DNA of 64,000 nucleotides from Bacteroidota bacterium (GCA_021323535.1 JAJONO010000006.1:62001-126000), one strand, 5' to 3'; counted from the stretch's first letter, positions 81-4,783 are shown. A program made the numbers and translations. Notes: generated from the sequence alone by a model not told the origin.

Positions 81-204
81 CATGACTCCGTAGGAGTCAT
101 ACATCTGTAGACAATGTTACCATAGATAATCGCGACCCCAGAGCGGGTCGAATGTGAATTACGAGATGGGTTAGCTGCGTTGATCCAGGATGAAGGCTGG
201 AACT
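81..204. repeat. Direct repeat, copy 1 (124 bp)
   Basis: This 124-bp segment recurs almost unchanged at 252-375 (offset 171 bp). It contains a perfect 8-bp stem-loop at 82-100 (ATGACTCC, loop GTA, GGAGTCAT) and a second hairpin at 133-150 (CGACCC/GGGTCG). The last part, from 165, also belongs to a 59-bp module that returns at 441-499. No credible coding frame crosses it. Hairpin-bearing intergenic repeats of this kind are known from other Bacteroidota; their function is unknown to me. Confidence 0.85.
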
Positions 205-251
205 CAAAAGAACCAGCCTCGCTATTTTAATTTATCTCTGTCAATGGTTCG

Positions 252-375
252 CATGACTCCGTAGGAGTCAAACATCTGTAGACAATGTTACCATAGATAA
301 TCGCGACCCCAGAGCGGGTCGAATGTGAATTACGAAACGGATTAGCTGCGCTGATCCAGGATGAAGGCTGGAACT
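252..375. repeat. Direct repeat, copy 2 (124 bp)
   Basis: Second copy of the repeat at 81-204. It differs at a handful of positions (for example AAACGG for AGATGG before the TTAGCTGCG segment). Both internal hairpins are intact. It is followed directly by a new hairpin and a tRNA 3'-end fragment (381-448), so the repeats and the tRNA debris form one composite array. Confidence 0.85.
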
Positions 376-597: not shown

Positions 598-672
<75 letters not shown>

Positions 673-1500: not shown

Positions 1501-1860
1501 TCATTTTATAAGCATCTCCACTGCTTCCTCTTTCGATTTAACAAACCCAACCTGCTTCCCTTTATTACTTTCAAAAATAAAATCTTTCAGGCTCTGACTT
1601 TGGATATTACTGAAATCGCCAACAATAGCTAATCTTACCCGGTAATTCGAAAACTTCTGTAAAATTTCTCCTGCGAGTTTTGTTTTAAGGTCGAAGAATT
1701 CAGGTGTTATATTTTTCTTATAAAGAATGATCTTATCAAACCCATCATAATATAAATTTCCCAGTAGATCTGTGGCGTCTTCGAGAGTTGAAATAACAAG
1801 TGTTTCAGAAAGAACTTCCACGATTTTTGTGTTGTTTATTTCGAGAGTATTGATTTGCAT
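1501..1860 (-). CDS. DUF4180 domain-containing protein
   Basis: A 119-residue soluble protein that matches the DUF4180 family over its whole length. The family hallmarks are visible: LYKKNITPEFFDLKTKLAGE near residues 46-65, then EILQKFSNYRVRLAIVGDFS and a closing FIFESNKGKQVGFV. No biochemical function is established for this family that I know of. The start lies 15 nt after the stop of the upstream 374-residue gene, so it is probably the third gene of the Hsp90-like operon. Whether it works with the chaperone pair is inference from spacing alone. Confidence 0.85.
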   Translation of the reverse strand: MQINTLEINNTKIVEVLSETLVISTLEDATDLLGNLYYDGFDKIILYKKNITPEFFDLKTKLAGEILQKFSNYRVRLAIVGDFSNIQSQSLKDFIFESNKGKQVGFVKSKEEAVEMLIK

Positions 1861-1875
1861 TACAGTTTGACCGTG

Positions 1876-3000
1876 TTATTCAACCTTGTAATTCACACTT
1901 ACACCGGCGAGCTGCTTATCCAGTCGTTTCATGTAATCGTTCCAGAATGTATTGGAATTACGATTATCTAACCGCGCCATGTGTTTTGTCATATTTTCAT
2001 TCAGCCAGTTTATCATTTCCTCTAAAGAATATTCGTTTTCGGAAATGGATTTTATGCCTGATCCAGGTAATTTTATTTTTACTTTTTTATGACCCTCATT
2101 TGCCATTACGGTGAAAAAATAATGACAGGAATGATAGAAATGAAACAGCCTGAAATCTGCAGTGGTCAACAAAGCTGCTGGAAACTGCGATTCAATTACC
2201 TTTACTCCATTCTTAAAATCTTTTTTCACAGCCAGGTAATAAATGATGTTCTGAAAAAGATCGATGTGTGTTTTCTTTAGCCCCAGCTTTTGCATAGTTA
2301 GCTGATAAAAATTTTCAGCAACCGAAAAATCACCCAGCATCAGGTTAGCAAAACATAATTTTGGATAAGTCACCTGTGGTACTTCCGAACATGTAAAGTT
2401 TTTTCCGCCAACTTTGGAATTTTGTTTAGCTGATTCTTTAAAGTTTCCAAAGTAGTTGTGATATTCAATCATGGTATCTTTCTGGCAGGCGAGGCAATCA
2501 TCATATCTTCCTTCTGAATTTCCGGATTTATAACTTCCGTATGCTTCCAGGGATTTTTGAGGCTCACCAAGCATCTGGAAGATAAGAGCACCATAATAAT
2601 CAATTACTTTTTCTCCCGAACGATTTGCTTTATACAGATCCTTAAATTCCAGCCACAATTCTTCAATTTTTGATAAAGGAATGGACGCGAAGCCAGGAAT
2701 GTGATGAATGATCCATTTAAATCCCCAGATAATATGAAGGGAATCCACGTGAATGTCGCTGTTCTGATGTTTCTTAAGGTGATTAAGTAACCAGGCATAT
2801 TGAACAATGGCTTCATCAATTTCATTCAGAAAAATAAGATGGGCATAGTATTTTTGTCTTGCTTTCGCTTCTAAATCCAGATTTTTCCAGCCTATGGCTT
2901 TCTGAAGTACTTTATAGGTAACGTCTTTACTTATTTGGGTATGACTCCATCCATGAATACTTAACAGATCATTAGCTTGTTCAACAGAATTTATTTCCAT
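1876..3000 (-). CDS. TPR-like partner protein of the Hsp90-like chaperone
   Basis: A 374-residue soluble protein made of helical pairs that look like degenerate TPR repeats (for example LMLGDFSVAENFYQLTMQKL around 215-235). A cysteine cluster stands out: C169-x2-C172, then C204 followed by a proline at 208. As I recall, TPR proteins encoded beside Hsp90-family genes in Streptomyces carry a similar C-x2-C...C pattern; this needs a search. The gene begins one base after the stop of the Hsp90-like gene, so the two are almost certainly co-translated. It is probably a dedicated co-chaperone or client adaptor, since TPR domains are the classic Hsp90 docking modules. That role is inferred. Confidence 0.65.
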   Translation of the reverse strand: MEINSVEQANDLLSIHGWSHTQISKDVTYKVLQKAIGWKNLDLEAKARQKYYAHLIFLNEIDEAIVQYAWLLNHLKKHQNSDIHVDSLHIIWGFKWIIHHIPGFASIPLSKIEELWLEFKDLYKANRSGEKVIDYYGALIFQMLGEPQKSLEAYGSYKSGNSEGRYDDCLACQKDTMIEYHNYFGNFKESAKQNSKVGGKNFTCSEVPQVTYPKLCFANLMLGDFSVAENFYQLTMQKLGLKKTHIDLFQNIIYYLAVKKDFKNGVKVIESQFPAALLTTADFRLFHFYHSCHYFFTVMANEGHKKVKIKLPGSGIKSISENEYSLEEMINWLNENMTKHMARLDNRNSNTFWNDYMKRLDKQLAGVSVNYKVE

Positions 3001-3001
3001 G

Positions 3002-4783
3002 TTATTTTAATTGTTGTAAAAGGTAAAGCAAATTAGAGTTTAAACGTTGTTGTTCTGTGTTTGATAAAGGAATATTTCCCTGTAGCATGGCATTAAAAAG
3101 CAATGTCTCAAGAATTATTCTTGAAGCTTCCGCGCCAGGCTGCTCAAGCAAGCGTATAATGACTTCGTTTTTTGCGTTGAGGTACAAATCAGAATTCTTA
3201 AGGTTCTGGTTCGCATTGGAAACACTATCCGTTACAAAAGCCCATAGATCCGAGCTTTCCTCTTTGATACGCGAACTGTCTTTTGATTTGTAAGCATCGT
3301 GAGACATATAGAAGAGGGCCGGAACAGAAAACGGTTCAAATATTTTTAAGGATAAATTACAATCGTACTCACTTGCTATTTTCTGAAGCTGAGCAACAGC
3401 GAACTTATTGTCTTCGTCGGTTTCATAGTCCACATCTTTTAAAGAGCTGCCAAAATAAGCCGAGTTAATCCTTTGGAATAAATGATTATGATTTTTGTCA
3501 GCCAACTGGTCAAACAACTCCGCATCATAAATGTAACCGGCATTAACAATGAGTTTGTCATTAGCTTTTGCTATAGGAAGTATTCGGTTATACTCATCAA
3601 CATCGGGTATGTACAGAATAGTTTTATTGTGCTTCATGATCTGTTCCAGATTCATGGTGCCGCGGCTGGTGCTGAATAAAAATTTTGGAATAACAAGAGC
3701 GCCAAACTCAGGATCTTCAATAGCGAGCGATTTGAATGCTATGATGTGGTGACGAAGAATATCTTCCAGTATTTCCGGATAATCTGAACTTAAAGTCTGA
3801 ATATGATCCTTAATCGCTTTTTCAATGGCCTTCTGAACCAGTGTAAGTTTATTGTTTCTGAAAATATCTTCACGTGAGGCGGTCGGACTAAGAGTTCCTG
3901 AATTAATAACAAGCCTTACAAAAAAGGCCCACGAAGGAAGAATATCACGATTATCTTTGGAGATAAACATGTTTTTAATGTATACCCTTGTTATGGCCTG
4001 TTCTCCATAATGTGTTGTCCTGTTAATGATATACGCTCTTCCGAAAGTGTCTATTTCGGGAATAGCTATCGGAAAACTCCATTCAAAATGTTCATTAAAG
4101 AATTGTTTTCCCTGTATCCTGCTTTCAGCTTCCTGTTCTTTGTGTTCCCAGGAAAAACGCTCTTTCTTCAATTCCCTTTTCCTGCCATCGATTTCCAAAT
4201 GAACAGGCGTGGTAATAAAAGTGGAGTAATCTTTTAAAAGCCCAAACAATACTTCCGAATCAAACTCTACATCTTCGTTAATTGTAAGAATAACACTGGT
4301 GCCAATAGGGTGTTGCTCGTCTACTGATCCGGTGCTATAAGTACCATCTATTTTACCAACCCACTTAACAGTTTTACTTCCTGCTTTGGCAGATCTTGTT
4401 TTTACAAGAATTTCATCGCTTACCATAAAACACGACAACATACCAATTCCAAACTGACCAATGTAAGTGCTTCTGTCTTCTATCATTGAATCAACTGATT
4501 TGGAACTGGCGCCTATTTTTGACAGGAAAAGCTCCACTTCTTCTTCTGTTAACCCAACGCCGTTGTCGGAAAAAATAAGTCCCTGCGAACCATTTTCATT
4601 GCTGAAATACACAATTTCTATAAGAGGGTCAAACTGATCGGTTTTTTTTCTGGCGGTTATGGCGTCAACCGAATTTTGTAAAAGTTCCCGGATAAAAATA
4701 TTGTGGGTTGAATAAAGACTTTCAGATAATATCCTTAAAACCCCCTCAAGATTTACCTGGAATACAGAAGAATTATTTTTCAT
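3002..4783 (-). CDS. Divergent Hsp90-family ATPase (HtpG-like)
   Basis: 593 residues, somewhat shorter than HtpG (about 625). The GHKL ATP site is complete: catalytic glutamate E33 in the N-box IRELLQNSVDA, D73 in FSDNGVG, and the glycine lid GQFGIG at 109-114. The middle-domain arginine that contacts the gamma-phosphate is R304 in SPTASREDIF. An active ATPase is therefore expected. The C-terminal third diverges strongly from housekeeping HtpG and ends without a MEEVD-like motif. It leads an operon with a TPR-like protein (one base apart) and DUF4180. This is the HSP90-family type that I recall being paired with a TPR gene in Actinobacteria; it is probably a second, specialised Hsp90 and not the genome's main HtpG. 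Confidence 0.88.
   Translation of the reverse strand: MKNNSSVFQVNLEGVLRILSESLYSTHNIFIRELLQNSVDAITARKKTDQFDPLIEIVYFSNENGSQGLIFSDNGVGLTEEEVELFLSKIGASSKSVDSMIEDRSTYIGQFGIGMLSCFMVSDEILVKTRSAKAGSKTVKWVGKIDGTYSTGSVDEQHPIGTSVILTINEDVEFDSEVLFGLLKDYSTFITTPVHLEIDGRKRELKKERFSWEHKEQEAESRIQGKQFFNEHFEWSFPIAIPEIDTFGRAYIINRTTHYGEQAITRVYIKNMFISKDNRDILPSWAFFVRLVINSGTLSPTASREDIFRNNKLTLVQKAIEKAIKDHIQTLSSDYPEILEDILRHHIIAFKSLAIEDPEFGALVIPKFLFSTSRGTMNLEQIMKHNKTILYIPDVDEYNRILPIAKANDKLIVNAGYIYDAELFDQLADKNHNHLFQRINSAYFGSSLKDVDYETDEDNKFAVAQLQKIASEYDCNLSLKIFEPFSVPALFYMSHDAYKSKDSSRIKEESSDLWAFVTDSVSNANQNLKNSDLYLNAKNEVIIRLLEQPGAEASRIILETLLFNAMLQGNIPLSNTEQQRLNSNLLYLLQQLK

Follow-up and report, generated by a model that had tools for sequence, protein, structure and literature searches.

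An Hsp90 with its own dedicated tetratricopeptide repeat (TPR) helper is usually regarded as a eukaryotic arrangement, and the existence of co-chaperones dedicated to bacterial Hsp90 has yet to be settled. Here, we address this question starting from a 64,000-nucleotide stretch of DNA from a Bacteroidota bacterium (GCA_021323535.1 JAJONO010000006.1:62001-126000, referred to below as the window). An initial annotation, made from the sequence alone, had proposed that one operon of the window encodes a second Hsp90, a TPR-like partner protein and a DUF4180 protein, with one base between the first two genes and 15 bp between the last two. The three reading frames and their positions are as claimed, all on the minus strand, the single base being position 3001. 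We find that the Hsp90 and its TPR partner form a pair that is obligate wherever it could be assessed in this analysis—although DUF4180 does not belong to it—and this suggests that certain bacteria possess an Hsp90 tied to an obligate helper of its own.

The pair recurs far beyond the window. Scanning a GTDB collection with an alignment of this Hsp90 gave 80 loci which, as the top-scoring hits, over-represent relatives of the query, and which span Bacteroidota, Bacillota, Actinomycetota, Myxococcota, Planctomycetota, Acidobacteriota, Thermodesulfobacteriota and Pseudomonadota. A hidden Markov model (HMM) of the partner places it beside the Hsp90 gene in 68 of the 80. Five further loci, all from Lachnospiraceae, have a remote partner in this place; by HMM these downstream genes appeared unrelated, a reading that we rejected on a hhalign probability of 98.2 to the partner, with the CxxC motif aligned in the members inspected. 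Three of the 80 Hsp90 genes reach the end of their contig, which leaves 77 assessable loci, and the partner is encoded in cis in 73 of these. The other four (L019, L031, L060 and L088) have an unrelated gene next to the Hsp90 and were considered as solo Hsp90s, which we rejected because each genome encodes the partner elsewhere (4 of 4). The partner is thus present in 77 of 77 assessable genomes, and the pair recurs across unrelated phyla. The two genes are often separated by a few bases or overlap by four bases or one.

Even genome samples of three phyla, which are free of this tilt towards relatives of the query, allowed us to look at co-occurrence. With the Hsp90 counted when it scored above its cut-off, both genes were found in the same 4 of 149 genomes in Actinomycetota (five copies of each, all adjacent), the same 3 of 199 in Bacillota (one with two tandem partners) and the same 2 of 395 in Bacteroidota. 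Pooled, 9 of 743 genomes carry this Hsp90 and the same 9 carry the partner, with 10 of 10 copies adjacent, and the partner profile detected no clear partner without this Hsp90 among the 734 remaining sampled genomes. Two partial matches to this profile (28.9 and 25.5 bits) were set aside as generic TPR noise, and seven Bacillota matches below the cut-off of the Hsp90 subfamily model NF010683 (206-216 bits) were taken as ordinary HtpG. The samples are phylogenetically non-independent and each includes its centre genome (G000, G423 and G427), known beforehand to carry the pair; with the centre genomes removed, the count is 6 of 6 versus 0 of 734. Even without the centre genomes, such an association would be difficult to account for unless the two genes are functionally tied.

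The two proteins have also been inherited together. In a mirror-tree analysis of 52 non-redundant pairs, their distance matrices correlate with r = 0.88, compared to a maximum of 0.20 in 2,000 permutations. Within the 17 hosts that also have a canonical HtpG, the correlation is 0.88 between this Hsp90 and the partner and 0.40 between HtpG and the partner. Since the partial correlation of this Hsp90 with the partner given HtpG is 0.86, versus −0.02 for HtpG and the partner once this Hsp90 is controlled for, the partner tracks the NF010683-type Hsp90 and not the housekeeping HtpG. On the strength of these co-occurrence and co-inheritance data, the Hsp90 and the TPR protein almost certainly work together.

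What kind of Hsp90 is this? The window protein matches the NCBIfam model NF010683 “HSP90 family protein” (PRK14083) with 534.1 bits (cut-off 455) over positions 2-594 of 604, and scores 184.7 bits against the HtpG model NF003555, below its cut-off of 371, which places it outside canonical HtpG. The host has an intact canonical htpG of 631 residues elsewhere in its genome (contig C31), so that the window gene is a second Hsp90, as first proposed. We aligned the subfamily with 20 HtpGs from subfamily-bearing genomes and the window host's own HtpG. The residues E33, N37, D40, D73, G109/G112/G114 and R304 are present in the window Hsp90 and conserved at ≥90% within the subfamily and ≥80% among canonical HtpGs, in agreement with the earlier reading of an intact ATPase site (E33, D73, lid glycines and R304). 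Because these catalytic residues are common to the subfamily and HtpGs, the ATPase is probably active. We also found 34 subfamily-specific positions (at least 90% in the subfamily, at most 15% in HtpG), among them W285, H346, Y417, F482, P484 and N539. The N domain holds 18 of the 34, the M domain 12 and the C domain 4, with domain borders set within this analysis. The C-terminal third is strongly divergent, as had been noted: only 8 of its 113 positions are conserved at the 90% level among subfamily members.

The subfamily profile nevertheless aligns end to end with Escherichia coli HtpG (6-591 versus 5-620, E 5.8e-60), and an AlphaFold2 model built for a relative from Paenibacillus (L065) aligns over residues 16-608 with TRAP1/Hsc82 at Z 28-30, so the predicted structure has the three-domain N-M-C fold of Hsp90. 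The window protein ends in ...LLYLLQQLK; tails vary across the subfamily, and none of its members has a MEEVD ending. In the tree, a long, well supported branch separates the subfamily from HtpG; the window Hsp90 groups within the subfamily with Flavobacterium, Fulvivirga and Aureispira (Shimodaira-Hasegawa-like approximate likelihood ratio test [SH-aLRT] support of 99), and the host's HtpG falls outside. Canonical HtpG scores over its cut-off in 41 of 50 host genomes and does not in 9, which include Listeria booriae and Streptomyces mexicanus, some of these 9 being incomplete metagenome-assembled genomes. Because canonical HtpG coexists with it in 41 of 50 hosts, the NF010683-type Hsp90 is not simply the housekeeping Hsp90. 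One genome (G467, loci L095 and L098) carries two whole Hsp90-partner pairs, and G411, G437 and G407 carry two subfamily-like Hsp90s each.

The 374-residue partner matches no family in Pfam, NCBIfam or PADLOC. Its AlphaFold2 model is helical nearly throughout, with a predicted local distance difference test score (pLDDT) of 92.9 and a predicted template modeling score (pTM) of 0.92; it was built from 40 sequences, those from plasmid records being left out of the structure-prediction alignments. Foldseek matched the model to TPR proteins (LGN, E 3.9e-4), and VIA-align matched it to MalT domain III (Z 20.9 over 320 residues, 4.9 Å), a TPR subunit of APC/C (4ui9 chain O, 20.8), APPBP2 (18.8), Rap (∼17) and NprR (15.8), the top Z scores lying well above the warning level of ∼13 for helical repeats. 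Profile searches point the same way: the partner matches designed pentatricopeptide repeat (PPR) and TPR proteins, the Listeria partner just passes Pfam TPR_8 (26.1, cut-off 25.7), and the actinobacterial partners exceed the cut-offs of TPR_12 and TPR_2 in their C-terminal parts. These actinobacterial proteins, of ∼900-1,100 residues, are two to three times longer and carry extra TPRs after the conserved part (L007 7855-10956 and L055 8746-11454). The partner is thus confidently predicted to be a full-length TPR superhelix, bearing out its first description as a TPR-like helical-repeat protein.

The residues most strongly kept across 82 aligned members are listed with the other features in Table 1; A228 is conserved in 96% of the same members, and C204 and P208 are invariant in a second alignment (A5). 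The cysteine pattern C169-x2-C172 with C204, which the initial annotation had pointed out here and in Streptomyces, is therefore real and conserved, Streptomyces included, and judging from the sequences, it looks like a structural zinc site. Two partner copies in tandem were seen in Clostridia (L027 6779-7894, L033 8786-10894, L049 8935-10059 and L052 2121-3221), where one copy has an EIPAGE-like segment at the place expected for DCxACE and keeps the equivalent of C204, possibly reflecting subfunctionalization. A Listeria monocytogenes record (L006 7818-9786) has the Hsp90 followed by two tandem partner paralogues, annotated only as hypothetical proteins.

Table 1. Coordinates of the operon and of the conserved partner motifs, counted from the first letter of the window; percentages refer to the 82 aligned partner members.
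Feature	Position	Strand	Description
Second Hsp90	3002..4783	-	NF010683/PRK14083 subfamily, 593 residues; ATPase residues intact, no MEEVD tail
Dedicated TPR-superhelix partner, unnamed family	1876..3000	-	374 residues; AlphaFold2, VIA-align, co-occurrence with Hsp90
DUF4180 gene	1501..1860	-	119 residues; PF13788, 138.8 bits
Partner C169-x2-C172 (motif D-C-x-A-C)	2485..2496	-	Likely two metal or thiol ligands, from sequence; each Cys 91%
Partner C204-x3-P208, third conserved Cys	2377..2391	-	C204 98%, P208 99%
Partner W92-x2-K95-W96, near-invariant, one helix (model helix 87-98)	2713..2727	-	W92 95%, K95 99%, W96 95%
Partner D345-x-R347-N348, near-invariant C-terminal motif	1957..1968	-	D345 93%, R347 96%, N348 94%

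Does the module extend beyond these two genes? The neighboring genes vary by lineage, and those that flank the pair are not carried along with it. A conserved third component was considered and rejected, as neighbor clustering gave no gene common across phyla apart from the pair and generic families. DUF4180, which had been counted as a member of the system, adjoins the pair only in the window and in 0 of the 80 other loci; in the window it is probably cotranscribed with the pair as a chance passenger outside the conserved module. At another locus (L008), a DUF4180 gene lies 4.7 kb upstream of the pair. Membership in an HrcA, HspR or CtsR heat shock regulon was likewise rejected, because no clear CIRCE, HAIR or CtsR operator was found upstream of the pair loci; the sole perfect CIRCE, at a locus that falls outside the subfamily in the tree (L012), serves as a positive control. 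A phage or viral origin was discarded, with no match to either protein in viral contigs. Because this Hsp90 is absent from all 24 other genomes of the host genus (24 of 24), either the host gained the pair or its relatives lost it. A tRNA-Met gene (window 598-672, minus strand) lies 0.8 kb from the operon and is adjoined by two 124-bp direct repeats, 96% identical and 171 bp apart (within window 81-375), a region that is a possible integration spot for an acquired pair.

How the two proteins might act together is a question of graded answers. We lean towards an autonomous Hsp90 with an obligate, dedicated TPR protein serving as co-chaperone or client adaptor. Here, an ATP-driven dimer of the NF010683-type Hsp90 and its dedicated TPR protein would make up an autonomous chaperone machine. 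The TPR superhelix would be ordered around a probably zinc-binding cysteine site formed by C169, C172, C204 and a putative fourth ligand, and its groove may bind a specific class of client. The partner would dock on the divergent middle/C-terminal surface of the Hsp90, doing so without a MEEVD tail because this Hsp90 has none, and once docked could deliver clients or tune the ATPase cycle. Physical binding, metal binding, the direction of action and the client are what we infer in this scheme. The further proposition, that bacteria possess an Hsp90 lineage to which an obligate TPR co-chaperone is genetically dedicated and docks by a non-MEEVD route, we regard as evenly balanced. Several points count against the scheme: (i) the co-occurrence data fit the partner as a co-chaperone, a client or a regulator alike; (ii) a read-through AlphaFold2 chain of the in-frame Paenibacillus pair (L065, with the stop read as glycine), obtained without predicted aligned error (PAE), has a pLDDT of 91 and a pTM of 0.71, and this pTM fits either a loose or an uncertain placement in the model; (iii) a Clostridia paralogue has lost C169 and C172 and keeps C204, so that the cysteine pair is not needed in every copy; and (iv) we found no experimental data on the pair in the literature.

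The TPR protein could instead be the dedicated client, that is, a sensor or regulator like MalT domain III or Rap/NprR that needs a private Hsp90 for folding or for reaching a ligand-competent state, by analogy with steroid receptors and Hsp90. The folds nearest to it over the full length belong to TPR sensors that bind ligands and to TPR scaffolds, it is duplicated next to a single Hsp90 in Listeria and Clostridia, and its actinobacterial forms have large extra TPR regions. However, it has neither an effector domain nor a conserved signaling neighbor, and conservation of the cysteines, K, W and DxRN over eight phyla better fits a fixed surface or metal site than a variable sensor pocket; we judge a client unlikely, while giving it real weight. 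The conserved CxxC and third cysteine are also what an Hsp33-like redox switch would use, in which oxidation frees zinc and makes the TPR protein a holdase that passes clients to this Hsp90. The remote Lachnospiraceae members, which keep CxxC and add WCYxxC, and the Listeria operon, which adjoins the ferritin gene fri, would agree with such a switch. We consider it improbable, since the cysteines are equally conserved in strict anaerobes (Ruminococcus and Lachnospiraceae), redox genes do not recur nearby and the same ligands suit a purely structural zinc site.

The remaining explanations start from the patchy distribution of the pair—the low counts in all three samples and the absence from the rest of the host genus. 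This pattern, together with the nearby tRNA-Met gene, would suit a stress or anti-phage defense module in which the Hsp90 is the switch and the TPR protein the sensor, a role that the initial annotation had also raised. It is not borne out by the neighborhood: among 133 neighbor proteins, no PADLOC family was matched more than twice, most matches were to kinases and defense genes are not enriched, and the only PADLOC match of the pair itself is to the generic GHKL ATPase portion of TmtA. A defense island was therefore rejected. The pair also comes without a toxin-like effector, and the Listeria locus is surrounded by core genes, fri and queG being two of them, which together make a defense module very improbable. 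The same patchiness could arise from two functionally unrelated genes held together as a co-transferred or mobile cassette, but in that case one would not expect the partner to be retained in all four genomes where it is unlinked, to be missing without this Hsp90 from all 734 other sampled genomes, or to travel without its flanking genes; we disfavor this explanation as scarcely credible.

The Hsp90 subfamily is already known by name, and what appears new is the partner family and the pair: in bacteria, a chaperone that has a TPR partner dedicated to it. In the open-licence literature, searched for HtpG with TPR, PRK14083, lmo0942 and DUF4180, we found no description of the pair or of the partner family, and the DUF4180 name is mentioned once, in one paper. 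The unnamed partner family is common to at least eight phyla and includes Listeria and Streptomyces. The pair makes the question of dedicated bacterial co-chaperones directly testable, as only two genes are involved and nothing else is conserved with them, canonical HtpG is available as an internal control in many hosts, and there are conserved residues to mutate. Moreover, were the dedicated partner to serve a narrow client, the pair would offer a simple system for the study of Hsp90 client recognition.

Set against known systems, the window Hsp90 is a member of NF010683, a curated model that is silent on the partner, which has no family of its own. It shares the three-domain fold and the ATPase residues with canonical HtpG (NF003555), but differs in scoring below that model's cut-off, in forming a separate clade and in its subfamily-specific positions. 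The partner matches MalT domain III and Rap/NprR over the full superhelix at an identity of ∼10%, yet it has no attached DNA-binding or AAA domain, and a common fold shows no function. An 877-residue distant Hsp90-like ATPase on a Pseudanabaena plasmid (L011 5938-8571) is encoded near both a divergent TIR-domain gene and the gene of an unrelated tetratricopeptide protein, and may belong to a separate kind of Hsp90 system. Eukaryotic TPR co-chaperones such as Hop/Sti1, FKBP51/52, PP5 and UNC45 resemble the partner in being TPR proteins tied to an Hsp90. In contrast to them, the bacterial partner forms one long superhelix that carries a cysteine site, its binding is proposed, and docking through a carboxylate clamp cannot apply because the bacterial Hsp90s lack the MEEVD tail. 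A second, shorter HTPG copy was reported in Streptomyces coelicolor (615 residues) and Bacteroides fragilis (588 residues) by Chen, Zhong and Monteiro (2006, PMC1525184), who placed members from Firmicutes, Actinobacteria and Bacteroidetes in HTPG Group C and proposed this group to be basal among Hsp90s; a word search of their text finds no mention of TPR. From its taxa and length, the NF010683 subfamily is probably Group C. If Group C is indeed basal (PMC1525184), the partnership of Hsp90 with a TPR protein may be of very ancient origin, or may have evolved separately from its eukaryotic counterpart.

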